IMG/VR virus record: IMGVR_UViG_3300042691_003303
Location: 1-24,046 of that record
DNA length: 24,046 nucleotides
Source of the DNA: a virus
Direction: 5' to 3' (one strand)
Under the pieces are notes generated by a model. The model did no database searches, was not told the DNA's origin, and was given only the letters and a program-made list of their open reading frames with translations. Both the position numbers and the translations under genes were made by a program. Below are positions 2,239-18,681 of the stretch, one piece after another; the first letter of the stretch is position 1; every line of letters begins with the position of its first letter.

Positions 2239-3828
2239 ATGGCAGACCGTTCAATAACACAACTACAAGTAGCTGGGCCGTTAACAGGTAACGAGGTTAC
2301 TGTTGTTGTCCAAAACGGAATTACCAAGCAAACTCAGCTACAAGATATTTCTAATCTTGGTGGCCCTACTGGACCGACGGGACCGCAAGGTAACGCTGGC
2401 CCTACTGGACCAACTGGTGCGACTGGTGCGACTGGTGCTGCATCGAATGTAACTGGCCCTACTGGCCCTACTGGCCCTGTTGGTGCTACAGGCCCCACAG
2501 GGGCTGCATCGAATGTAACTGGTCCCACTGGGCCAACAGGACCGACAGGTGACACTGGACCGACAGGAGCAGCATCCAATGTAACAGGACCCACTGGATC
2601 AACTGGTGCTACTGGGCCACAAGGTCCGCAAGGAATACAAGGCCCCACTGGACCGATTGGGCCTCAAGGTGCTACTGGCGACACAGGACCGACAGGTGCC
2701 GCATCTAATGTGACGGGACCGCAAGGCCCTACCGGACCACAGGGTATACAAGGACCAACTGGATCTCAAGGCATTCAAGGTGCCACTGGCGATACTGGAC
2801 CGCAGGGACCGACAGGACCACAAGGAATACAGGGTCCTACTGGCCCGACAGGTGATACTGGACCGCAAGGTATACAAGGCGTAACTGGCCCAACTGGACC
2901 GCAAGGTCAAACCACTGGTTTAACATTATTCCTTGACGGCGCTACGGCAACTGGACCGCAGGCATACAATTTGTTAGTTGTGCCAAACACTGGTGCACAA
3001 ACAACGCTGTCATTAGCAACAAGTACAGCCACCCCACTTTTACTTGGTTCGTTTGTAACTGCTGCTGGTGTGCCTAACAACACATCTTTCATAGGTGGTT
3101 TGTGGGAACTGTATGCGTGGATAAGTCATGCTGGTGGTGGTGCAACATTTAGATTTTGGTCTGAGGTTCAAGAAGTTGCATCGGACGGCGTTACTGTATT
3201 GCAAACACTTGCAAGCGGAAATTACGCATCAGGAACTCTTGTTTCAACATCAACTAACACGTTGTATGAATATGATCTATATGTTCCCACAGCTACATTA
3301 GCATCAACAAGCAGTCGCATACTAGTTAATTTATATGTTCAAGGACAAACAGGTAGCACAACCGCATCCTTGAACATGCGCAACAACACGCAGTCGCACA
3401 TTGTTACAACGATTGCGTTTAACGTTGTCGGACCAACCGGACCACAAGGTCCAACGGGTGACACTGGACCGCAAGGACCGACAGGACCGCAAGGCATTCA
3501 AGGTGCAACTGGCCCAACTGGCGATACTGGACCGCAGGGATTAGTCGGCCCCACTGGCCCAACTGGAGACACAGGACCACAAGGTCCTACTGGTCCGACA
3601 GGCTGGACGGGACCGATTGGCCCAACTGGTGACACTGGCCCAACTGGACCAACCACATACCCAGGTGCTGGCGTGGCAGTATCAACTGGTACAGCATGGG
3701 GAACATCATTAGTAGCAGCAAGTGCAAACACCGCAAGCGCGCTGGTACAGCGCGATACTAACGGTAACTTTAGTGCTGGTACAATAACCGCAACAGCGTA
3801 TAATGGAGTGAGTGGCGGAGTATTTTAA
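2239..3828 (+). CDS. Collagen-like fiber protein with two Gly-X-Y domains
   Basis: 529 residues. Residues 1-40 form a short N-terminal domain ([20 protein letters not shown]), a type common at the virion-attachment end of phage fibers. Residues 41-223 are collagen-like Gly-X-Y repeats, mostly GPT and GPQ. Residues 226-396 form a globular beta-rich domain. Residues 397-471 are a second Gly-X-Y run, and 472-529 form a Thr/Ala-rich tail ending in GGVF. Collagen-like phage proteins form homotrimeric rods, so this is probably a head or tail fiber. In the first run the triplets are interrupted four times by GAASNVTG, at residues 66, 88, 110 and 153. The next gene, 14 nt downstream, is a glycosyltransferase. 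GPT triplets are O-glycosylated in the Bacillus spore protein BclA, so this rod may be its substrate (inference). Confidence 0.85.
2359..2907 (+). repeat. Collagen-like coding repeat tract 1
   Basis: About 61 tandem Gly-X-Y triplets in the 9-nt pattern GGN-CCN-ACN, with alternating codon choices (ccc, cct, cca, ccg). Four in-frame GAASNVTG interruptions lie at residues 66, 88, 110 and 153, that is 22, 22 and 43 residues apart, which suggests that the tract grew by duplicating a unit of about 66 nt. Confidence 0.9.
3427..3651 (+). repeat. Collagen-like coding repeat tract 2
   Basis: A second run of 25 Gly-X-Y triplets (residues 397-471), again rich in GPT, GPQ and GDT, without the GAASNVTG interruptions seen in tract 1. 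It separates the central globular domain from the C-terminal tail. Confidence 0.9.
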
Positions 3829-3841
3829 CTAGGAGCAGTCT

Positions 3842-4885
3842 ATGAAAATCGCTGTATATGCGATTAGCAAAAACGAAGAACAGTTTGTAAAGACATTCTG
3901 TGAATCGAGTAAACTAGCAGATTACATTATGATCGCCGATACGGGATCAACCGACGGAACAGTCGAGGAGGCTAAAAAGTATGGGGCTGTTGTTCATAGC
4001 ATTTGCATTTCTCCTTGGCGCTTCGATCATGCTAGGAATGCCGCTTTGGCATTACTCCCCGCTGATATTGATGTCTGCGTATCGTTAGATTTAGACGAGC
4101 AATTAGAACCTGGTTGGCGTGATGAAATAGAAAGACTCTGGACACCAGAGACAACACGACTTAGTTATAAGTTTGATTGGGGACACGGTAAAGTATTTTA
4201 TAGTACAAAAATACATAACCGCAAAGGATACCACTGGCATCATCCGTGCCATGAGTACATTAGGCCTGATCATCGAACCAAAGAGGTGTATGCGTATAGC
4301 GAGATGTTAATGATTACGCATCACCCAGACGAGACAAAATCTCGTGGGCAATATTTAGATTTGCTTGAGATGTCTGTTAAAGAAGATCCAAGTTGCCCTC
4401 GTAATGCGTTTTATTATGCTAGGGAGTTAACATACTACCAGCGTTGGCAAGAAGCAATTGTTGCACTGCAAAAGTATTTAGATATGCCCGAGGCAACCTG
4501 GAACAACGAGAGATCGTATGCGTTAAGATTGATTGGTAACTGCTACGATAACTTAGGACAAGATGGCATGTCGTGGTATCGTAGGGCAGTAGCAGAAGAC
4601 GCTGGTGTGCGTGAAACATGGTGTGAATTAGCACAGGCATGTTATAGAAAAGGATTATGGGAGGAGTGTTACGGCGCGGCATGTAACGCCCTCAAGCTGA
4701 CAGAGTGTACTTTTACGTATACAATTGATGCAAACAATTGGAAAGCAAGGCCGCACGACTTAGCGGCGATTGCAGCGTACCGATTAGGATTTAAAGAAGA
4801 AGCAATTAAGCATGGCACGAACGCCCTAGAATTTGAACCCAATAACGAGCGATTACTAAAAAACCTCGAGTATTATAAGGAATAA
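3842..4885 (+). CDS. GT2-like glycosyltransferase with C-terminal TPR-like repeats
   Basis: 347 residues. The N-terminal domain (about 1-150) has hallmarks of a GT-A glycosyltransferase of family 2: AISKNEEQF near the start, nucleotide-binding DTGSTDGT at 33-40, and a metal-binding DxD (LDLDE, D83 and D85). HHPCHEYI at 133-140 contains the conserved His-Glu seen in this subgroup. Residues about 185-345 are helical pairs resembling tetratricopeptide repeats (for example NAFYYARELTYYQRWQEAI), a scaffold that often binds the acceptor protein. The enzyme should transfer a sugar from a nucleotide-sugar in the host cytoplasm. The start is preceded by AGGAG. It follows the collagen-like fiber gene by 14 nt, making that GPT-rich rod the most attractive acceptor. 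A host surface glycan is the alternative. Confidence 0.85.
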   Translation: MKIAVYAISKNEEQFVKTFCESSKLADYIMIADTGSTDGTVEEAKKYGAVVHSICISPWRFDHARNAALALLPADIDVCVSLDLDEQLEPGWRDEIERLWTPETTRLSYKFDWGHGKVFYSTKIHNRKGYHWHHPCHEYIRPDHRTKEVYAYSEMLMITHHPDETKSRGQYLDLLEMSVKEDPSCPRNAFYYARELTYYQRWQEAIVALQKYLDMPEATWNNERSYALRLIGNCYDNLGQDGMSWYRRAVAEDAGVRETWCELAQACYRKGLWEECYGAACNALKLTECTFTYTIDANNWKARPHDLAAIAAYRLGFKEEAIKHGTNALEFEPNNERLLKNLEYYKE

Positions 4886-4887
4886 AT

Positions 4888-5253
4888 ATGGCACAAGCGG
4901 GATTTACACCGATTAGTTTATACTACAGCACTACACCAAGTGCTGCGCCGACTGCTGGCAATTTGGTTAATGGCGAGTTAGCAATTAATATTACCGATGG
5001 TAAATTATTTTACAAAGATAATTTGGGTGTTGTACAATCATTTTCTAGTACAACTGCAACAAATTTAGCTGGGGGTGCTGCTAGTCAAATTCCATACCAA
5101 ACGGGTGCAGGAACAACTGCGTTTATTCCAAATGGCACGGCAGGACAAATTTTAACAAGCAATGGAACTTCTGCACCTAGTTGGCAAGCAGCACCGGCAA
5201 CTGGAGTAACAAAAGCCCAAGCAATTGCTTATTCAATGACATTAGGATTCTAA
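4888..5253 (+). CDS. Small fiber-like virion protein
   Basis: 121 residues. The N-terminal half (FTPISLYYSTTPSAAP...NGELAINITDGKLFYKD) is a short module that I recognise from many phage fiber N-termini, where it precedes the receptor-binding part. The second half has GGAASQIPYQTGAGTTAF and NGTAGQILTSNGTSAPSW, low-complexity beta-strand repeats typical of trimeric fiber shafts. The protein is much shorter than usual fibers, so it may be an adaptor or a fiber remnant whose receptor-binding part is now supplied by other proteins. The ATG lies 2 nt after the glycosyltransferase stop, with AAGGA embedded in the end of that gene. Confidence 0.75.
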   Translation: MAQAGFTPISLYYSTTPSAAPTAGNLVNGELAINITDGKLFYKDNLGVVQSFSSTTATNLAGGAASQIPYQTGAGTTAFIPNGTAGQILTSNGTSAPSWQAAPATGVTKAQAIAYSMTLGF

Positions 5254-5262
5254 GGATAAAAC

Positions 5263-5667
5263 ATGGCAAATCCCAATATAGCAGCACTAACAACGATTAA
5301 AGGTAATACGGCATATGTCGTTCCGTCTACCACAAACGCAACAACTAGCTGGACATTTGATGGAGCAACATCACTAACTGGACTAACTCCAGCGGCTGGA
5401 ACTGTAAACAAAATTACGGGCTTGATCGTATCTAATACGACTGCTTCCGCTGCTTCAGCAACAGTTGGCGTAGGCAACAGCGCTACATTCGGTTCTGCTA
5501 CAGTGATCGGTTACTTGGCTTATCAGATCTCTGTGCCAGCAAACGCATCTTTGATCGTGGTAGATAAGACTACCGACCTTTACATTACGGAGAACCAATC
5601 TGTTGGTGTGACATCAGGCACGGCATCCGCCTTGACCTACACAGCAATTTTTGAAGCGATAACCTAA
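5263..5667 (+). CDS. Small beta-rich virion-type protein, function unknown
   Basis: 134 residues rich in Thr, Ala and Val, beginning with NPNIAALTTIKGNTAYVV. The composition is that of a beta-sandwich virion protein (TVGVGNSATFG, YQISVPANASLIVVDKTTDLYI), and I recall similar proteins next to fiber genes in uncultured phages. The RBS AAGGAT lies 7 nt upstream. The gene ends 1 nt before the first RCC1-repeat gene, so the two are likely co-translated. A fiber-tip, baseplate or adhesion role is possible but nothing in the sequence decides it. Confidence 0.75.
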   Translation: MANPNIAALTTIKGNTAYVVPSTTNATTSWTFDGATSLTGLTPAAGTVNKITGLIVSNTTASAASATVGVGNSATFGSATVIGYLAYQISVPANASLIVVDKTTDLYITENQSVGVTSGTASALTYTAIFEAIT

Positions 5668-5668
5668 G

Positions 5669-6811
5669 ATGTCCCTGCGTTACACAGGAGCTTGGTTACA
5701 GGACGGAGCGTTTAATCCGCTTGTTGCCCCACCGCCGCCTACTGTTACTTATTATTTAAACAGTTGGGGAGTTAATTCTAGCGGTCAGCTAGGTTTAGGA
5801 AACACAACAGACTATTCATCTCCCAAACAAGTTGGTGCATTAACGGACTGGTTGGAAATTGCTGGGGGTTATGCACACGGATTAGCAGTTAAAACTAATG
5901 GTACTTTGTGGTCTTGGGGAAGTGGAAGTAATGGTCGATTGGGTTTAGGAAATACTACAAGTTACTCTTCACCAAAGCAGATTGGTGCTCTTACAACCTG
6001 GAGAACAGTGTTTTGCGATGGCTTTTCAAGTTTTGCAATAAAAACAGACGGTACTTTATGGGCTTGGGGGTCTAATCCATTTGGTGCATTAGGATTAGGC
6101 AACACAACAGACTATTCCTCTCCAAAACAGGTTGGAACATTAACAAACTGGGCGAGCGGGGCGGGCGGAAATAGAGCAATATACGCTGTCAAAACTGACG
6201 GCACACTTTGGGCTTGGGGGCAACCAGCTGGCGTTGGCGCTCTTGGTTTAAACAATAATACATATTATTCATCGCCTGTCCAAGTTGGCTCTCTAACTAA
6301 TTGGTCTTCTGTATCAGGAATGCTTTATGCTGCTGTAGCTGTTAAAACAAACGGCACATTATGGTCATGGGGGTTTAACGCAGAAGGTCAATTGGGCATT
6401 GGTAACACAACTAATTATTCCTCACCTAAACAAATTGGTTCTTTAACAACATGGTCTAAAGTTGGATCTGGCAATCGTTTTGCAATTGCTATAACTAATA
6501 GTGGAACAATTTGGTCTTGGGGTCAAAACAACAATGGTCAACTAGGTCTTGGCGACACAACAAACAGATCTTCACCTAATCAAATTGGTTCACTAACAAA
6601 TTGGTCAAATGTTTCAGGCGGCAGTGCTTTTGCTTTGTCCATTAAAACAAACGGCACACTTTGGTCTTGGGGTCAAAATAACGATGGTCAATTAGGTCTA
6701 GGAAACATAACATACTACTCCTCCCCTAAACAAATTGGTGCTTCAACAGGTTGGGTAAAGATAAATGCTGGTGGAGTTGGTAGCACTCGTTCTTTTGGAT
6801 TAGTTATTTAA
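5669..6811 (+). CDS. RCC1-repeat beta-propeller protein A1
   Basis: 380 residues. A short N-terminal segment (1-27, with RYTGAW and the linker PLVAPPPPTV) precedes seven RCC1-type repeats of about 50 residues. Each has G-x-LGLGNTT, SSPKQxGxLTxW and KTDGTLWSWG. Seven repeats match the seven-bladed RCC1 propeller. The last repeat stops at SFGLVI without KTDGTLW, and the first starts at LNSWG, as expected if N- and C-terminal strands close one blade together. The segments after each LTxW differ strongly between repeats and probably form binding loops. The location among fiber genes suggests an exposed virion or receptor-binding protein. There is no clear independent RBS and the ATG is 1 nt after the upstream stop. 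It pairs with the next gene and is most like the protein at 9761. Confidence 0.85.
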   Translation: MSLRYTGAWLQDGAFNPLVAPPPPTVTYYLNSWGVNSSGQLGLGNTTDYSSPKQVGALTDWLEIAGGYAHGLAVKTNGTLWSWGSGSNGRLGLGNTTSYSSPKQIGALTTWRTVFCDGFSSFAIKTDGTLWAWGSNPFGALGLGNTTDYSSPKQVGTLTNWASGAGGNRAIYAVKTDGTLWAWGQPAGVGALGLNNNTYYSSPVQVGSLTNWSSVSGMLYAAVAVKTNGTLWSWGFNAEGQLGIGNTTNYSSPKQIGSLTTWSKVGSGNRFAIAITNSGTIWSWGQNNNGQLGLGDTTNRSSPNQIGSLTNWSNVSGGSAFALSIKTNGTLWSWGQNNDGQLGLGNITYYSSPKQIGASTGWVKINAGGVGSTRSFGLVI

Positions 6812-6812
6812 T

Positions 6813-7976
6813 ATGCCAATCAACCCATCACCCTACATCCAATACGGCGGTCTTTGGACGGCATCTCAGCAAGCAGACGCTAAAGCTGCGGGTACTTGGC
6901 CCGTGCCTCCTGTGCCGTATTTATACACTTGGGGTATAGGCACTGATGGTCGAATTGGTGACAATGCTACAACGGATCGTTCATCACCAGTACAAATTGG
7001 TAGTTTAACAACTTGGCTTGAGGTAGCAGCAGGATACAGTTACTTTAGTGCGTCTATTAAAACAGACGGCACATTATGGACATGGGGTCAAAGTAATGTG
7101 AGTTACGGACAACTTGGTTTAGACAATACAACCAATTATTCTTCACCAAAACAAGTCGGAGCATTAACCAACTGGTCAAAAATACAGTGCGGTGGAAACT
7201 CTATGCTGGCACTAAAAACGGACGGTACGATTTGGTCTTGGGGTAATGGTGCAGATAGCCAATTAGGGTTAGGAAATACAACATCCTATTCTTCACCAAA
7301 ACAAATTGGCTCTCTCACAAATTGGGCATATATTTCTTGTATGTTAGATTCATGCTCCACAATTAAAAACGATGGTTCTTTATGGGTTTGGGGTAGAAAT
7401 ACTTTTGGTGGGCTTGGTAATGGTAATACAACAAATGTTAATTCACCTATTCAAATTGGCGCTTTAACTAATTGGAGCAAAGTTGCTAATTCTGGTTTTC
7501 ATACAATTGCTGTTAAAACCGATGGCACATTATGGTCATGGGGTTATAACGTTAATGGTCAACTTGGGCTAAATAACACTACAAATTACTCATCTCCTGT
7601 TCAGGTTGGTGCGTTAACTAATTGGGCTAATGTTGCAGCGCATGGAACTTTTTCGTTTGCTCTTAAAACAGACGGAACAATATGGGCTTGGGGTAATAAC
7701 AGTAGTGGACAGTTGGGCTTAGGAAATACAACTAACTATTCATCTCCAAAACAAATAGGTGCGTTAACCACTTGGTCAAAAATTGCGGTTCGTTTAAACG
7801 GGTCATTTGCCATAAAAACCGATGGCACTTTGTGGACTTGGGGAAACGGGGCAAACGGGCAAAATGGTGTTGGTAATATAACAAACTATAGTTCGCCAAT
7901 TCAAGTAGGATCATTAACATCTTGGAATAATATTGCAGGAAATAGATCCGCTGGGATTGGCATTGCAAGAATTTAA
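6813..7976 (+). CDS. RCC1-repeat beta-propeller protein A2
   Basis: 387 residues with seven RCC1-type repeats after an N-terminal domain of about 39 residues (PSPYIQYGGLW, then AAGTWPVPPVP). This N-terminal domain differs from that of A1 but is shared with the protein at 10888, so it is probably a specific docking region. The repeats have the LGLGNTTNYSSPKQVGALTNW scaffold and KTDGTLWSWG. Repeat 1 is atypical (RIGDNATTDRSSP) and repeat 3 has KNDGSLWVWG, a small drift. The start is TAATATG, 1 nt after the A1 stop, so the two are probably made together. Likely a virion-surface propeller; the ligand is unknown. Confidence 0.85.
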   Translation: MPINPSPYIQYGGLWTASQQADAKAAGTWPVPPVPYLYTWGIGTDGRIGDNATTDRSSPVQIGSLTTWLEVAAGYSYFSASIKTDGTLWTWGQSNVSYGQLGLDNTTNYSSPKQVGALTNWSKIQCGGNSMLALKTDGTIWSWGNGADSQLGLGNTTSYSSPKQIGSLTNWAYISCMLDSCSTIKNDGSLWVWGRNTFGGLGNGNTTNVNSPIQIGALTNWSKVANSGFHTIAVKTDGTLWSWGYNVNGQLGLNNTTNYSSPVQVGALTNWANVAAHGTFSFALKTDGTIWAWGNNSSGQLGLGNTTNYSSPKQIGALTTWSKIAVRLNGSFAIKTDGTLWTWGNGANGQNGVGNITNYSSPIQVGSLTSWNNIAGNRSAGIGIARI

Positions 7977-7991
7977 ACAGAGGAAAACGTT

Positions 7992-9764
7992 TTGAAGAAA
8001 ACATTGCACTTTTTATCAGGAATACCAAGAAGCGGTTCTACCGTCTTGGCAGCGATTCTAAATCAGAATCCAATGACGCACGTCAGCACTACATCTGGTT
8101 TGGTACACGCCTTAGATGGACTTGCCAATACTTGGCACTCCGCTGGTCTACTAAATGAGAATGACCCAGAGCGTAAACTCCTTGCCCAGACGATGCGTGG
8201 CACGATTGATGCGTTCTACGAGTCTACTGATAAGCCTGTGATTATTGATAAAGGGCGTGGCTGGCCCGTGCCTGTGATTATGCAAGCGATGGGTCAAGTG
8301 CTACAGCACAAGCCTAAGATTATTGCGACTGTTCGTTCTGTGCCAGACTGTATGGCATCGTTTGTGCGGATTGCTAAACCAGCCGATTTAGATGAGTTTA
8401 TGCACTCTGGGCAGCTTGCCGACCATTTGAAGGCGGCGTACATCTCGTTGCAAGAAGGCTATCAGTTTATGCCTGAGTGCTTTCTCTTTATTGAGTACGA
8501 AGACCTATTGGCAAACCCAAAGGCACAATTAGACCGTATCCATGAGTTCTTAGAGTTGCCAGCGTTTGATTACGACCTGTCTAATATTGACGGCTCCTCA
8601 GTAAAAGAAGACGATGAGAACCTACATGGTTACTCTGGAATGCACGATGTCAAACCCGTCTTGGCACGGCAACACAATGAGTCGCCAAAAGACGTACTAA
8701 AGAACCACTACGCAGCATTCTGCCAGCCTGAGTTCTGGTTAGAAAAACCCCGTACCGTACCAGAGTTAACGGACTTAGATTTACAGTTAGCGGCATCGAC
8801 CGCTGGTGATTTTGTAGAAGGCTGGAGATTAGCGCAGAAGTTAGAAGCCCAAGAGCCTAATAATCACCGTGCAGCGTACAACCGTGGCTGGTATTTGTTA
8901 CGGCAAGGGCAGATTCAAAAAGGTTATCAGTTGATGGATCGTGGTCGTTTGGTTGGTGTATTTGGTAACAAGCACCCAGAGACCGTGACTCAGCCGTGGG
9001 ATGGCAAAACAAAAGGCACAATCCTGCTGTATTTAGAAGGCGGTTTGGGGGATCAGATTCACCAAGTCCGTTATGCCAAAGACATCGCCGACCGTGGCAA
9101 TAAAGTCATCGTGGCGTGTACTGGGTCATTAGTTCCGATGTTTAACCAACTACCTGGCGTATCAGCTGCCGTCCAACATGGCGCTGAGTATGGGGTTTAC
9201 CATGACTACTGGGTAGCTGGTATGAGTGCGGTAGTACCTCTAGGTTACGAGTTAAAAGACTTGAAAGGCACGCCCTACATTGAGAAGCCAATTGCTATCA
9301 AAGGACGCAAGAAACGCATCGGTCTGCGCTGGCAAGGTAACCCAACATTCGAGCATGAGCATCACAAAAAGTTCCCGTATCAGTTAATGTTTGATGCGGT
9401 TAAGTCGGATGAGTACGAGTTTATCTCGCTCCAGCGTGATGAAGGTGCAGAGGCTTGCCCACCATGGGTTCGTCAAGTTCCATTAAATAGCTGGGAAGAT
9501 ACGAGAAACGCCATTGCCTCATGTGATTTGGTCATCTCTTCTTGCACATCAGTATCCCATCTATCCGCCGCTATGGGCGTTGAGACATGGGTAGTAACCC
9601 CAATCATGCCGTACTTCTTGTATGCGCTTGATGGTGAAAAAACACCATACTACAATAGCATGACGCTGATTCGTCAGGAAGTTTTTGGCGACTGGCAAGC
9701 CCCGTTTGACAAGATTAAAGCTAAACTAAACGCAACTAAACAACCCATAAGGATGGTCAGTTGA
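7992..9764 (+). CDS. Sulfotransferase-TPR-glycosyltransferase (GT9-like) fusion
   Basis: 590 residues with a TTG start (GAGG 8 nt upstream; MKKTLHFL follows). Residues 1-250 look like a sulfotransferase: P-loop GIPRSGSTVLA at 10-20, the place where PAPS phosphate binds, and IATVRSVPDCMASFVR at 111-126, corresponding to the 3'-phosphate-binding region (R115, S122). Residues about 265-325 are TPR-like. Residues 340-580 resemble a GT-B glycosyltransferase of the GT9/heptosyltransferase type, with GGLGDQIHQVRY, IGLRWQGNP and CDLVISSCTSVSHLSAAMGV. The protein could add sugar and sulfate to one acceptor. The gene splits the two RCC1 pairs and looks more GC-rich than them. The stop overlaps the next TTG start. 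Motif loss in either catalytic site cannot be excluded by eye. Confidence 0.8.
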   Translation: MKKTLHFLSGIPRSGSTVLAAILNQNPMTHVSTTSGLVHALDGLANTWHSAGLLNENDPERKLLAQTMRGTIDAFYESTDKPVIIDKGRGWPVPVIMQAMGQVLQHKPKIIATVRSVPDCMASFVRIAKPADLDEFMHSGQLADHLKAAYISLQEGYQFMPECFLFIEYEDLLANPKAQLDRIHEFLELPAFDYDLSNIDGSSVKEDDENLHGYSGMHDVKPVLARQHNESPKDVLKNHYAAFCQPEFWLEKPRTVPELTDLDLQLAASTAGDFVEGWRLAQKLEAQEPNNHRAAYNRGWYLLRQGQIQKGYQLMDRGRLVGVFGNKHPETVTQPWDGKTKGTILLYLEGGLGDQIHQVRYAKDIADRGNKVIVACTGSLVPMFNQLPGVSAAVQHGAEYGVYHDYWVAGMSAVVPLGYELKDLKGTPYIEKPIAIKGRKKRIGLRWQGNPTFEHEHHKKFPYQLMFDAVKSDEYEFISLQRDEGAEACPPWVRQVPLNSWEDTRNAIASCDLVISSCTSVSHLSAAMGVETWVVTPIMPYFLYALDGEKTPYYNSMTLIRQEVFGDWQAPFDKIKAKLNATKQPIRMVS

Positions 9765-10885
9765 GCTACCGTTACGATGCCTCTTTTATAAAGCCAGGGT
9801 TAAATACCTTAGTACAAGGTACGCCTACTTATTTACCTTATTTATACGCTTGGGGGCAAGGTACTAATGGTGGATTAGGTCTTGGTAACACCACTAATTA
9901 TTCCTCTCCAAAACAAGTAGGATCTTTATCTAATTGGGCGGATATTAGTTCAAGGTTTAACGTTACGTTTGCAGTTAAAACAGATGGGACGTTATGGGCT
10001 TGGGGCAACAATAACAGTGGTCAGCTTGGCTTGGGAGACACAACAAACAGATCTTCACCAGCTCAAGTTGGAGCATTAACCAATTGGTTGCAAGTATCTG
10101 CGGCATCTTATGTTGGGTATGCAATTAAAACAGACGGCACACTATGGTCTTGGGGGACTAATGGTTTTGGGCAACTAGGGCTTGGTAATACAAACAATTA
10201 TTCTTCGCCAAAGCAAGTTGGCTCACTTACAAATTGGTCAAAAATTGCAGCTGGTTCAGTTTATTGTGCATACGCCATAAAAACAGACGGAACCCTTTGG
10301 TTTTGGGGTTATGGTGGAAACGGTCAATCAGGATTAGGTAATGTAAATAATTATCTTAGTCCTAAACAAGTTGGCGCACTAACTAATTGGCTTCATATTT
10401 CTGGTGGCTCATATACTGCATTTGCTGTAAAAACAGACGGCACACTGTGGACGTGGGGAACAAATACTTCTGGTCAATTAGGACTTGGAAATACAACAAC
10501 ATATTCTTCGCCAAAACAGGTTGGTGCATTAACAATATGGAAAACTGGATCTAATTGGGCATCCATGGGAGCCATTACAACTGACGGAAGGCTTTATACA
10601 TGGGGACCAAATGGTTCTGGTCAATTAGGATATAACACTGGCGGAGGAAGCACATCTAGCCCACAACAGGTTGGTTCATTAACTAATTGGTCTCTTGTTT
10701 ATATGACTGCTCATGCTATTGCAGTTAAAACAGACGGTACATTATGGTCTTGGGGTAACAACGGGCAAGGTCAATTAGGTTTAGGTAACACAATAGATAG
10801 GTCATCTCCAAATCAAGTTGGCGCTTTAACTACTTGGTTAAAAGCATCTAATGGTTATAGCAATTCCTTTGGATTACTTTATTAA
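9761..10885 (+). CDS. RCC1-repeat beta-propeller protein B1
   Basis: 374 residues, seven RCC1-type repeats after a short N-terminal segment (SYRYDASFIKPG...LVQGTPTYLP) clearly related to that of the protein at 5669. The TTG start overlaps the stop of the sulfotransferase fusion (TTGA), with AAGGA about 8 nt upstream, so it is translationally coupled. Repeats 1-4 and 7 are regular. Repeat 5 has TTDGRLYTWG, and repeat 6 has a diverged loop (GYNTGGGSTSSPQQ). The C-terminus (NSFGLLY) matches the closing strand of A1 (RSFGLVI). Its role is probably that of the A1 protein with different variable loops: an exposed propeller on the particle that may bind host surface ligands. Confidence 0.85.
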   Translation: MSYRYDASFIKPGLNTLVQGTPTYLPYLYAWGQGTNGGLGLGNTTNYSSPKQVGSLSNWADISSRFNVTFAVKTDGTLWAWGNNNSGQLGLGDTTNRSSPAQVGALTNWLQVSAASYVGYAIKTDGTLWSWGTNGFGQLGLGNTNNYSSPKQVGSLTNWSKIAAGSVYCAYAIKTDGTLWFWGYGGNGQSGLGNVNNYLSPKQVGALTNWLHISGGSYTAFAVKTDGTLWTWGTNTSGQLGLGNTTTYSSPKQVGALTIWKTGSNWASMGAITTDGRLYTWGPNGSGQLGYNTGGGSTSSPQQVGSLTNWSLVYMTAHAIAVKTDGTLWSWGNNGQGQLGLGNTIDRSSPNQVGALTTWLKASNGYSNSFGLLY

Positions 10886-10887
10886 AT

Positions 10888-12060
10888 ATGCCAATAGTCT
10901 ACTCATACATCCAATACACAGGCATCTGGAAACTAGACGCTGCTAGTAAAGCCAAGGGCGCTGGTACTTGGCCCGTGCCACCTACACCTAAGTTATTTAC
11001 ATGGGGTAACAATGCTAATGGTCAACTAGGGCTTGGCAATACAACATCTTATTCATCTCCAAAACAACTTGGTAGTTTAACTAACTGGTCTGTTATAGCT
11101 ATTGGGGGAGATACTGGTAGTAATCAATACGTTTCGTCTGTAAAAACAGATGGCACACTATGGGCATGGGGTAGAAACGGCTACGGACAACAGGGCATAG
11201 GAACTACAACGGGTAATTCTTCTCCTGTACAAGTTGGGGCTTTAACAACATGGTTAACGGTAGCAAATGGCTATGGACATACATTAGCTATTAAAACTGA
11301 TGGCACACTATGGGCATGGGGTTTAAATAATACTGGTCAACTTGGTTTATCAAATTCATATAATTACTCCTCACCAGTCCAAGTTGGTGCTTTAACTAAT
11401 TGGTCGCAAGTATCCTGCGGTTATCTACATACAGCGTCTGTTAAAACTGATGGCACACTATGGACTTGGGGTTTAAATAGTAATGGGCAACTTGGTTTAG
11501 GAAACACAACAAACAGAAATTCTCCTGTTCAGGTTGGAGCATTGACTAATTGGTCTTTTGTAATGTGTGATAAGTATTCAACACTATCTATTAAAACAGA
11601 CGGCACTATTTGGTCTTGGGGCATGAATCCTTTTGGTAATTTAGGTCTTGGAAATCAAGCCTACTACTCATCTCCAAAACAAATTGGTGCGCTAACTAAT
11701 TGGTCTAAGGTATCTGCTTCAAATTATGCAGTGGGTGCTATTACAACTAGTGGTGCTTTATATGCATGGGGTCTTAATGATTTAGGTCAATTAGGCGTGG
11801 GAAATATAACTTATTACTCATCTCCGAAACAAGTCGGTGCATTAACCAATTGGCTTAATGTTTGTTCTGGTGCGTACTTTATGGTTGCTACAAAAACTGA
11901 TGGGACATTGTGGTCTTGGGGATCTGGTAATTCTGGGCGATTAGGTTTAGGCAACACAACTAACTATTCTTCACCAAAACAAGTCGGTGCTTTAACAACT
12001 TGGTCTTACATACCTAGAAGGTCTGCAAGTAATTTTATTTTAGCGATAGCAGCAACTTAA
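10888..12060 (+). CDS. RCC1-repeat beta-propeller protein B2
   Basis: 390 residues with seven RCC1-type repeats. The N-terminal domain (YSYIQYTGIWKLD, then GAGTWPVPPTPKLFTWG) is homologous to that of the protein at 6813. Repeat 1 has an insertion (IGGDTGSNQYVSS), repeat 2 deviates (QQGIGTTTGNSSP), and repeat 5 has TTSGALYAWG. The spacing to B1 (TAAATATGCCAAT) mirrors the A1/A2 junction (TAATATGCCAAT), showing that the pair was duplicated as a unit. No independent strong RBS is visible. Like the other three, it probably folds as a seven-bladed propeller exposed on the virion. An effector role inside the host cannot be ruled out from sequence. Confidence 0.85.
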   Translation: MPIVYSYIQYTGIWKLDAASKAKGAGTWPVPPTPKLFTWGNNANGQLGLGNTTSYSSPKQLGSLTNWSVIAIGGDTGSNQYVSSVKTDGTLWAWGRNGYGQQGIGTTTGNSSPVQVGALTTWLTVANGYGHTLAIKTDGTLWAWGLNNTGQLGLSNSYNYSSPVQVGALTNWSQVSCGYLHTASVKTDGTLWTWGLNSNGQLGLGNTTNRNSPVQVGALTNWSFVMCDKYSTLSIKTDGTIWSWGMNPFGNLGLGNQAYYSSPKQIGALTNWSKVSASNYAVGAITTSGALYAWGLNDLGQLGVGNITYYSSPKQVGALTNWLNVCSGAYFMVATKTDGTLWSWGSGNSGRLGLGNTTNYSSPKQVGALTTWSYIPRRSASNFILAIAAT

Positions 12061-12080: not shown

Positions 12081-12509
12081 ATGGCATTATATGTTCAAGT
12101 AGTAAACAACCAAATGGCACAGTGCATTGACACTACGCCGCCAGTACCAGTCGGGCAAGATGGCTGGAAGAACGCAATTGAGATCAAACCAACGCCAGTA
12201 CCTTATCGGCAAGGTCTAAACGGGCCAGTCTATGACTGCTCTAAAGATCCTGTTGAGATCGTATGGACGGTGTTTGATTACGACATCCCAACACGTAAGA
12301 GCAGCCAGCTTGGTCAAAACACCAGCCAGTACAACCAAGTCGTTGCACAGCAAGTTGCGTTGGAAACCAATAACAACCCAGACGATCATTATGATCCAGC
12401 CGTTGTAGCAGCCGCTCAAGCTCGCTACGAAGACTTGCGTACACAGATCAACGCAGCAACAACGCAAGAAGAGTTGGATGTAACTCAAGCAGAATTGAAC
12501 AACAACTAA
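12081..12509 (+). CDS. Unknown protein, possible fiber-assembly factor
   Basis: 142 residues. The N-terminal half (about 1-67) is compact with strand-like segments (LYVQVVNNQMAQCID, PVEIVWTVFDYDIP). The C-terminal half is Gln/Asn/Ala-rich and helical (AAAQARYEDLRTQINAATTQEELDVTQAELNN), probably a coiled coil. The layout of short globular domain plus helical tail, placed directly after the fiber/propeller genes, is like small tail-fiber assembly or attachment proteins, but I do not see a diagnostic motif. A strong RBS (AAAGGAGC) precedes the ATG. Confidence 0.7.
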   Translation: MALYVQVVNNQMAQCIDTTPPVPVGQDGWKNAIEIKPTPVPYRQGLNGPVYDCSKDPVEIVWTVFDYDIPTRKSSQLGQNTSQYNQVVAQQVALETNNNPDDHYDPAVVAAAQARYEDLRTQINAATTQEELDVTQAELNNN

Positions 12510-12549: not shown

Positions 12550-13386
12550 ATGAAAAAGATATTAATCATGGGTTTACCAGGGTCAGGCAAAACATACCTA
12601 GCCCAAGCATTAAAGAAGTACTTGGAAGAACACGGCACAACCAGCGTAGGCAATGCTGAGATGCTTCCAATCACCGGGTTTAATGCTCGTGTGACTTGGT
12701 TCAATGCGGATGAAGTACGCAAGAAGTACAACGATTGGGATTTCTCAAAAGAAGGTAGAATCCGTCAATCTCTGCGCATGGCGCAGTTCGCTTTAGAAGC
12801 TGGTGGTGATTATGTGATTTGCGACTTTGTTGCTCCCTTAGTCGAGATGCGTAATAACTTCAAAGCCGACTGGACGATCTGGATGGACACCATCGATGCT
12901 GGTCGGTTTGAGGATACCAACAAAGCGTTCATCCCGCCAGAAGTCTATGACTTCCGTGTCACCGAGCAGAACTGCGAGAAATGGGCTGAGTTCATTGGCA
13001 ACCACATTATCGAGAACCGTAGACGACCCACATTTAATTGGCAAAAAGAAACCGTCCAAATGCTAGGCAGATGGCAACCATGGCACGCTGGTCACAGAGC
13101 GCTCTTTGAACGGGCGATTGCCAAAACTGGGCAAGTTGTGATCCAGATTCGTGACTGCCAAGGTTGGCAAGGATCAAACCCATTTGCGATTGAGCAAGTG
13201 AAGAGTTACATAAAACGAGATCTTGATCCGCTGTTTCAAGGTCAATACGAAATTCAAGTCGTGCCCAACATTGTGAACATTACATACGGGCGCGATGTGG
13301 GTTATAAGATTGAGCAAGAGGTGTTTGACAAAGCAATCCACGACATCTCAGCCACAAAGATACGTAAAACAATGGGAATTGAATAA
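12550..13386 (+). CDS. APS-kinase-like domain fused to an HxGH nucleotidyltransferase
   Basis: 278 residues. The N-terminal kinase (1-160) has a Walker A P-loop GLPGSGKT at 8-15, FNADEVRKKYNDWDFSKEGR and SLRMAQFALEAGGDYVICDFVAP, a pattern like adenylylsulfate kinase (the enzyme that makes PAPS) or a related P-loop kinase. The C-terminal domain (165-278) is a cytidylyltransferase/NMNAT-type nucleotidyltransferase: GRWQPWHAGH at 173-182 (HxGH) and ISATKIR at 266-272. If the kinase acts on APS, the product would feed the sulfotransferase at 7992. However, the second domain looks more like NadM/NadR-type adenylyltransferase than ATP sulfurylase, so an NAD-salvage role is a real alternative. RBS GGAGAAAGT precedes the ATG. 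Substrate specificity is unresolved. Confidence 0.8.
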   Translation: MKKILIMGLPGSGKTYLAQALKKYLEEHGTTSVGNAEMLPITGFNARVTWFNADEVRKKYNDWDFSKEGRIRQSLRMAQFALEAGGDYVICDFVAPLVEMRNNFKADWTIWMDTIDAGRFEDTNKAFIPPEVYDFRVTEQNCEKWAEFIGNHIIENRRRPTFNWQKETVQMLGRWQPWHAGHRALFERAIAKTGQVVIQIRDCQGWQGSNPFAIEQVKSYIKRDLDPLFQGQYEIQVVPNIVNITYGRDVGYKIEQEVFDKAIHDISATKIRKTMGIE

Positions 13387-17418: not shown

Positions 17419-18681
17419 ATGCCAATTTATACTTCGCCCTTTACTGGAACAGTTGTTCAACCAACTGATGTATCTTATTACGAACTTAACTTTAGTTCGA
17501 ATGTGCAGTTGTATTGGCCTTTGGTTGTCAATCCAACCCAAGTTCCAGCGGCACGTATTATTGATGCTACTCCATCTACAACAAGTCTTGTAGTATCTTT
17601 ACCCGCCGCTAATCAAGGTACGGTTGGTGCGGACATTTTAATCCGTAACTTTGGTGCAAGTGCTTTTACTGTACAAGATTATTCTGGCACTGGATCAGTA
17701 ACAATTAATCCTGGTGTATCCAAATATTTCTATTTGTCTGACAATACTACGGAAGCTGGTGTCTGGCAGAATGTAACCTTTGGTGCTGGCACATCATCGG
17801 CTGATGCCGCATCACTGGCTGGTTTTGGTTTGGTTGCTTTGGCTGGCAAATTAAACACCACACAGAATGTTGTTGAAGTATCTTCTCCCCCAACAATCAA
17901 TGATGCAAGTCGTGCTAGTACAATTTTATGGACAGCGGGCAACGACACCATCACACTACCCACTGCTACTAGTTTAACGGCGGGTTGGTTTATTGCATTT
18001 AGAAATGCTGGAAGTGGAACATTAACATTTACACCGCAAGGCACATCTGTAATTAACGGACAGCAGTCTTTAGATGTTAACCCAGCCGAATCTGGTTTTA
18101 TTGTATTCCAACAATCTACTGGTGACTTCTTTACTGTTGGATTAAATGTCCCATCTAATGTGACATTTACTTCCGCAACATACGATGTGGATTCAATCGT
18201 TGGTAACACATTAAGTTTAGTGGCGTTTGCTCCAATCATTCAAACCTATGTGGCTTTGTCTGGCACTCGTACCGTCGACCTAGATGTTACATTACCAGCC
18301 ACAACTCAGTTGTATGTTTTGGTAAACAACACAGGACAACCGTCTTATAATATTACTTTCCAAGTGTCTGGAAGTTTACAGACACCAATTAATTTATCGG
18401 ATGGTCAAGTTGCTTTGGTATTGAGCGATGGTAACTTCTTATATGTTATCAGTCAAACAACCACAACTTCATTTTTAGCAATTAACGGATCGGCAGCAGC
18501 TCCGTCGTATTCGTTTATTAGTGACAACAACACTGGTATGTATTTAGTTGGAACTAGTGTTTTGGGATTGTCTGCCAATTCAGCAAATATGTTGCAACTT
18601 GACAACACCAATCCTCTTAATCCTCAAGTATCCACCCCAGCAACATTTACCGCTGGATTGATTGGTGGTGGGACGTTCTAA
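17419..18681 (+). CDS. Beta-rich tail/fiber-type virion protein
   Basis: 420 residues, almost all Thr/Ser/Val/Ala-rich strands. The middle (about 170-320) has repeated short strand motifs (GNDTITLPTATSL, RNAGSGTLTFTPQGTSVINGQQSL), typical of beta-helix or shaft regions. The C-terminal part has PSYSFISDNNTGMYLVG, a pattern frequent at the distal end of phage fibers, and it ends in GLIGGGTF. There is no catalytic triad or intramolecular chaperone motif that I can see. Being encoded between adaptor and hub genes it may be a tail fiber or a protein of the tail shell. Its stop overlaps the next start (TAATG). Confidence 0.75.
   Translation: MPIYTSPFTGTVVQPTDVSYYELNFSSNVQLYWPLVVNPTQVPAARIIDATPSTTSLVVSLPAANQGTVGADILIRNFGASAFTVQDYSGTGSVTINPGVSKYFYLSDNTTEAGVWQNVTFGAGTSSADAASLAGFGLVALAGKLNTTQNVVEVSSPPTINDASRASTILWTAGNDTITLPTATSLTAGWFIAFRNAGSGTLTFTPQGTSVINGQQSLDVNPAESGFIVFQQSTGDFFTVGLNVPSNVTFTSATYDVDSIVGNTLSLVAFAPIIQTYVALSGTRTVDLDVTLPATTQLYVLVNNTGQPSYNITFQVSGSLQTPINLSDGQVALVLSDGNFLYVISQTTTTSFLAINGSAAAPSYSFISDNNTGMYLVGTSVLGLSANSANMLQLDNTNPLNPQVSTPATFTAGLIGGGTF

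Follow-up and report, generated by a model that had tools for sequence, protein, structure and literature searches.

A sulfotransferase-glycosyltransferase fusion gene in a phage adhesin cassette, with a proposed role in modifying RCC1-repeat proteins

A stretch of phage DNA of 24,046 nucleotides (IMG/VR virus record IMGVR_UViG_3300042691_003303, positions 1 to 24,046; hereafter the window) encodes a single protein in which a sulfotransferase domain, TPR-like helices and a GT-B glycosyltransferase (GT) domain are joined, and its gene, here named STGT, lies among genes for RCC1-repeat proteins in a conserved cassette. We propose, with a probability of roughly 0.55, that STGT is a bifunctional enzyme that glycosylates and then sulfates the adjacent RCC1 adhesins in the manner of TibC and TibA, with PAPS supply boosted by the phage. 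The TPR-like helices would dock the acceptor for the GT-B domain, which would move a sugar from a nucleotide-sugar onto the beta-propeller RCC1-repeat proteins whose genes flank STGT on both sides; the N-terminal sulfotransferase would then add sulfate from PAPS to that glycan, and the product of the APS-kinase-like gene at 12550 would convert APS to PAPS during infection. The outcome would be negatively charged, glycan-coated attachment proteins, with the whole set passing between phages as one module. A fuller version, which we hold tentatively and at rather less than even odds, is that of a portable, self-contained phage sulfo-glycosylation system that modifies the receptor-binding RCC1 propellers after translation, probably in recurrent loops of the N-x-T-x-Y-S-S-P kind; its PAPS would come from the phage kinase, and adhesin and modification would form one host-range module. 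The features of the window are listed in Table 1.

Table 1. Features of the STGT fusion gene and of the surrounding cassette in the window.
Feature	Coordinates	Strand	Basis
GT2 glycosyltransferase, C-terminal TPR	3842..4885	+	PF00535 E=9e-6, phrog_13126 E=1e-105
Tail-fibre-like small ORF	4888..5253	+	phrog_1699 long tail fibre distal subunit E=1.3e-5; 34/80 STGT loci, 7/75 controls
Conserved cassette ORF upstream of RCC1a	5263..5667	+	58/80 STGT loci, 0/75 backbone control loci
RCC1-repeat protein a, probable adhesin/acceptor	5669..6811	+	PF00415 E=5e-64; phrog_4219/7220
RCC1-repeat protein b, directly upstream of STGT	6813..7976	+	RCC1 E=8e-68
STGT (sulfotransferase / TPR-like / GT-B fusion gene)	7992..9764	+	intact ORF, 590 aa, TTG start, TGA stop
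STGT sulfotransferase domain, residues 1-250	7992..8741	+	Pfam Sulfotransfer_3, Foldseek TPST2 E=8e-7, invariant motifs
STGT two TPR-like helical hairpins, residues 261-320	8772..8951	+	predicted helices 261-271, 274-287, 292-304, 308-320
STGT GT-B glycosyltransferase domain, GT9/OGT/TibC type, residues 336-580	8997..9731	+	predicted fold, Foldseek, invariant motifs
RCC1-repeat protein c, TTG start	9761..10885	+	RCC1 E=6e-67
RCC1-repeat protein d	10888..12060	+	RCC1 E=2e-72
Conserved cassette ORF, last RCC1 to kinase	12081..12509	+	71/80 STGT loci, 0/75 controls
APS-kinase-like domain + NadM-like nucleotidyltransferase domain	12550..13386	+	PF01583 APS_kinase 32.6 bits vs cut-off 21.1

The fusion is real and chance is excluded: among its 220 IMG/VR relatives, each of the best 80 is a full-length fusion with an open frame, at 73-95% identity (these 80 loci are partly redundant, with 30 nonredundant at 93%). 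A GAGG ribosome-binding-like site precedes the start codon of STGT, and its stop is overlapped by 4 nt by the gene for RCC1c; the TTG starts originally predicted for both genes are confirmed. Of 79 relatives aligned at the STGT start, 70 have ATG and 9 have TTG, and the start call is therefore right, with TTG as the minority form. Both halves of the protein have dN/dS values of 0.02-0.04 relative to three close relatives, and with values of about 0.03 both are under strong purifying selection.

Residues 7-192 match PF13469 (Sulfotransfer_3; E=5.6e-16, 59.9 bits against a cut-off of 27) and the N-terminal half also matches PF00685 (Sulfotransfer_1; E=4.9e-10, 39.7 bits against a cut-off of 22), the two matches spanning residues 7-195. 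The signature of PAPS-dependent sulfotransferases is present, with a PRSGST phosphosulfate loop (12-17) and the 3'-phosphate-binding residues R115 and S123 eight apart, and P12, R13, S14, G15, S16, T17, R115, S123 and Y169 are invariant among 30 nonredundant homologs. In an AlphaFold2 model of the whole of STGT from 30 homologs (pLDDT 80), the N-terminal half is matched by Foldseek to human and tick tyrosylprotein sulfotransferases (TPST). From its sequence, the domain is a PAPS-type sulfotransferase with predicted activity.

In the middle of STGT the TPR models of Pfam are all sub-threshold (TPR_17 scores 17 against a cut-off of 24.4), and on the isolated C-terminal half no Pfam model reaches its cut-off, the GT9 family PF01075 giving at best 11.1-13.2 bits against 22. 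Since Pfam is sub-threshold there, the GT half was judged by two structure predictions. The C-terminal half of the full-length model matches SPINDLY, bacterial OGT and heptosyltransferases, and a model of residues 259-590 from a more diverse alignment including unfused members (AlphaFold2, pLDDT 92.1) has Thermobaculum OGT, TibC, SPY and WaaF as its best PDB matches; Foldseek E values for the GT domain lie between 1e-5 and 1e-3 against OGT, TibC, SPY, WaaF, WaaC and 3tov. A G-D motif (Asp354), S-x-x-H and R-Q...W are invariant in fused and unfused forms down to 25% identity, and D354, in the first lobe, is by motif at the position of the GT9-type catalytic base. Modelling thus supports a C-terminal GT-B domain of the GT9/GT41 type.

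The original prediction of two enzymatic domains joined by TPR-like helices on one chain is supported: in profile searches of each domain the sulfotransferase scores above the Pfam cut-off, and the GT-B domain is recognized by its predicted fold, with GT9 and TPR_17 both below their cut-offs. Its suggestion of a coordinated sugar-plus-sulfate role is strengthened by the invariance of the PAPS motifs and the GT9-type Asp, by purifying selection on both halves, and by the separate, neighboring GT and sulfotransferase genes of some relatives. As far as sequence can tell, the enzyme identity of STGT is close to certain.

The cassette consists of RCC1-repeat genes, the fusion gene, two small conserved ORFs and the APS kinase gene, and occupies a variable region between the capsid and lysis genes, adjoining tail-fibre-like proteins. 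RCC1 genes are present in 79 of the 80 fusion loci, the ORF at 12081 in 71 (it has no Pfam match above cut-off and no PHROG match), and the ORF at 5263 and the kinase gene in 58 each; all of these and the fusion are at 0/75 in control loci found via the backbone gene at 18681 of the window phage, about 27 of which extend at least 6.2 kb upstream of that gene, the window's distance to the kinase gene. Controls that reach far enough and were mapped carry other ORFs at the cassette position. All 75 controls have the backbone genes at 17419 and 18681, against 4/80 and 18/80 of the fusion loci, respectively. Because the cassette genes track the fusion loci and are absent from the backbone loci, we interpret the cassette as an exchangeable module.

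The linkage is seen from whichever gene it is approached. Starting from the fusion, a kinase gene is found no more than 6 kb downstream in 37 of the 40 loci with at least 5 kb of downstream sequence (3/40 are without one), and starting from the kinase, a sulfotransferase gene is upstream in 42 of the 54 loci with at least 5 kb upstream (26 fused, eight with a separate GT gene and eight alone), a count in which L180 was scored as a miss though a sulfotransferase directly precedes its kinase. Of the 40 new loci of 9 kb or more reached from RCC1, 39 have a GT gene and 38 of these also a sulfotransferase gene, with some of the contigs repeating contigs of the fusion set. An RCC1 gene is no more than 1.2 kb away from 91/95 fused and 11/12 unfused GT genes, with 0/75 in control loci, and in two of the exceptions (L160 and L183) RCC1 genes were found under a looser pattern.

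Some cassettes include genes for further glycan enzymes, a GT25, a UDP-galactopyranose mutase and an FkbM methyltransferase, consistent with the construction of a larger glycan. The GT2-TPR gene of the window is outside the core cassette (2/80 STGT loci) and is possibly another glycan enzyme; upstream of it is a gene for a collagen-like G-P-T repeat protein (2239-3828) that matches tail-fibre PHROGs. In the cultured cyanophage S-SRM01, a tail-fibre gene is accompanied by genes for RCC1, TPR-GT, sulfotransferase, GT2 and epimerase. We also note that in 12 loci (L036, L038, L039, L041, L046, L047, L048, L051, L061, L074, L078 and L169) genes for GIY-YIG/NUMOD3 homing endonucleases or their homologs begin exactly at the stop codon of the fusion with a 4-nt overlap (Pfam 1.2e-11 in L047), and a related gene is upstream of the fusion in other loci, which suggests a role of homing in the spread or conversion of the cassette. 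In one locus (L211:2367-4070), where an unfused sulfotransferase and the kinase also occur, a 567-aa protein is by eye carbamoyltransferase-like.

Gene order points to the RCC1 proteins as the probable acceptors. Each of the four in the window has seven RCC1 repeats by Pfam, and they may be virion proteins: virions of E. coli phage W70 contain RCC1-annotated phrog_4219 proteins, as seen by mass spectrometry (PMC11370258), and a Clostridioides phage has an RCC1 gene flanked by tail-fibre genes. The cassette proteins of many loci have two classes of RCC1 loop, N-x-T-x-Y-S-S-P and D-x-x-x-R/K-S-S-P, in which N occurs with Y in 673 loops and D with Y in 0/167, N being coupled also to the T two residues on; these statistics are suggestive, as repeats inside one protein are not independent. 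The N-x-T-x-Y loop suits a modified sequon, and the coupling can also be purely structural. Other phages carry RCC1 genes and, over the stretch read, none of these enzymes, and thus RCC1 itself does not require them. One locus (L365) has seven tandem RCC1-repeat genes and no GT or sulfotransferase gene within its 9.6-kb stretch.

The gene at 12550, which the original prediction did not mention, is the probable source of donor (PAPS) for the sulfotransferase. It scores 24.2 bits against the cut-off of 138.7 for the NCBIfam equivalog TIGR00455, and two kinase-only homologs at the same cassette position match APS_kinase best of all Pfam families (E=3e-17 and 8e-17; 62-63.5 bits). We considered and rejected a full PAPS synthase composed of kinase and nucleotidyltransferase, as the second domain is NadM-like (NMN adenylyltransferases) and not an ATP sulfurylase, and many cassettes have the kinase domain alone. 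The two-domain kinase is present in phages with no recognizable sulfotransferase nearby (on large contigs, e.g. L212 and L213) and in Stenotrophomonas phages that gave no match to the fusion protein, and for this reason the gene may have another use. Between the sulfotransferase and two-domain kinase genes of one locus (L185:7449-8411) there is a gene for a 320-aa protein with a weakly kinase-like C-terminal part after an N-terminal part of 185 aa.

Separate genes for the same functions are found in some relatives: two loci (L148 and L152) code for RCC1, GT, sulfotransferase and kinase individually, with the GT gene before that of the sulfotransferase. The GT and sulfotransferase are thus separate neighbors in some genomes and fused in others, which argues for a joint function. 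In cyanophage BUCT-ZZ01 the same GT is encoded directly after an RCC1-repeat gene and is fused to a methyltransferase-like domain, suggesting that the GT-RCC1 pair is constant and the tailoring partner changes. Three loci (L044:11105-11884, L049:11459-12241 and L158:10023-10784) have a second, short and unfused sulfotransferase gene in the region of the fusion. In INPHARED no record spans the whole of STGT, and its halves match different records or separate genes of one record. In the tree of GT domains the fused forms make up a single clade (100/99) that excludes the unfused GTs; in that of the sulfotransferases they likewise group together (100/100), next to a phage protein that is unfused, and the bacterial representative falls outside the clade. 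These trees indicate a single fusion event, within phages.

That STGT is instead a foreign gene recently acquired from a host, the separate origin originally predicted from a GC contrast, is very improbable. The contrast itself is real over the whole gene, with 47.5% GC (GC3 0.484) in STGT and 40.3-42.6% (GC3 0.25-0.28) in the four RCC1 genes, and codon usage deviates from the rest of the window at z=6.5. STGT is unlike the RCC1 genes only, however: GC is 47.3% in the major capsid gene (GC3 0.477), 47.3% in the 12081 ORF and 46.1% in the kinase gene (GC3 0.498), and codon usage deviates at z=10 in the capsid gene and at z=6.0 and 6.5 in RCC1c and RCC1d. We therefore reject GC as a sign of separate origin, since the capsid and kinase genes share the GC3 of STGT and it is the RCC1 genes that are low outliers. 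STGT is inherited inside the whole adhesin cassette, and on the tree it is other phage sulfotransferases, not bacterial ones, that come nearest to it. A search for the fusion in hosts, run on genome_contigs, found it in full in two records only, both metagenome-assembled contigs and possibly phage; the other 60 matches are to the sulfotransferase half only, mostly in Rhodanobacteraceae.

The acceptor is where the other readings differ. STGT could modify a host surface glycan (LPS or capsule) during infection, bringing about serotype conversion or superinfection exclusion, with the adhesins merely sharing a host-recognition region; LPS is a substrate of GT9 enzymes, WaaC and WaaF are also among the matches of the GT domain, and the GT25, UDP-galactopyranose mutase and methyltransferases of some cassettes are typical of surface polysaccharides. 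We think this rather unlikely, as the GT and RCC1 genes are no more than 1.2 kb apart in about 95% of loci, fused and unfused, and overlap in the window, the cassette is among late genes between capsid and lysis genes, and protein glycosyltransferases (OGT, SPY) are built as TPR plus GT-B. The TPR domain and OGT/TibC-like fold, which point to a protein acceptor, together with an RCC1 linkage that holds across fused and unfused forms, also make it improbable that the enzymes produce a sulfated small molecule or sulfolipid and that the adhesin linkage is a by-product of module exchange, even though sulfotransferases accept a wide range of substrates (PMC10580990). We give a similarly low standing to direct sulfation of tyrosine in the RCC1 repeats (loop G-N-x-T-x-Y-S-S-P), with the GT glycosylating the same loops. 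The best solved structural relatives of the domain are tyrosylprotein sulfotransferases and a recurrent loop Tyr is tied to the N-x-T sequon by the counts given above, but that Tyr is without the acidic context of TPST substrates and the coupling of N with Y and of D with R can be structural among non-independent repeats. Moreover, the Glu of the GEET region is catalytic in TPST, and GEET aligns to STTS in STGT (residues 32-35, invariant in the homologs) with no acidic residue; with this Glu missing, a TPST-type mechanism of tyrosine sulfation is disfavoured.

Sulfation of a glycan on the RCC1 adhesins would bear on the phage sulfotransferases, which have so far been catalogued among auxiliary metabolic genes without a known function (PMC10580990). 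The conserved cassette permits a concrete claim, namely that the substrate is the neighboring RCC1 adhesin and that the phage supplies the donor through a kinase of its own. Should this hold, sulfation of attachment proteins would be the practice of a widespread group of aquatic phages, and this would be a phage-borne case of an adhesin that travels with its own glycosyltransferase, like the bacterial TibA and TibC. Searches of the literature for phage sulfotransferases with RCC1, APS kinase or tail fibres found nothing relevant, and for sulfated phage virion proteins no report was found in the library searched.

Several known systems resemble parts of STGT. The closest in proposed role is TibC (BAHT family, adhesin TibA; PMC4358343), a dedicated adhesin glycosyltransferase whose GT-B fold is among the best Foldseek matches and which shares the putative catalytic Asp; STGT has 12-14% identity to it, is helical in the model before the GT domain (TPR-like helices) where TibC has an N-terminal beta-barrel and iron-finger, and is fused to a sulfotransferase that TibC does not have, and the acceptors of TibC are autotransporters and not phage RCC1 proteins. 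Bacterial OGT and SPINDLY (GT41), the top Foldseek matches, have TPR helices N-terminal to GT-B, a layout that STGT may share; STGT has only two TPR-like hairpins, with the Pfam TPR models below cut-off, is 11-13% identical to them, and has a C-terminal motif that resembles GT9 (a weak PF01075 match). The GT9 heptosyltransferases WaaC and WaaF share the GT-B fold (TM about 0.5), the G-D motif and the C-terminal SxxH, but STGT is below the Pfam GT9 cut-off and has a TPR-like region and a fused sulfotransferase. TPST and the Sulfotransfer_3 family share the fold and PAPS-binding motifs of the N-terminal domain, from which STGT departs at the TPST Glu region and in its GT fusion. Homologous but unfused domains are present in the sulfotransferases of cyanophages S-SKS1, S-SRM01 and S-SCSM1 (25-30% identity in the listed records) and in those of OM43-related phages, in a study that describes phage sulfotransferase function as unclear (PMC10580990). 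Lastly, BUCT-ZZ01 UTS52179.1 has the same GT domain (34.6% identity); its gene directly follows one for an RCC1-repeat protein, next to a tail-fibre gene, and it differs in that the partner of the GT is methyltransferase-like and not a sulfotransferase.
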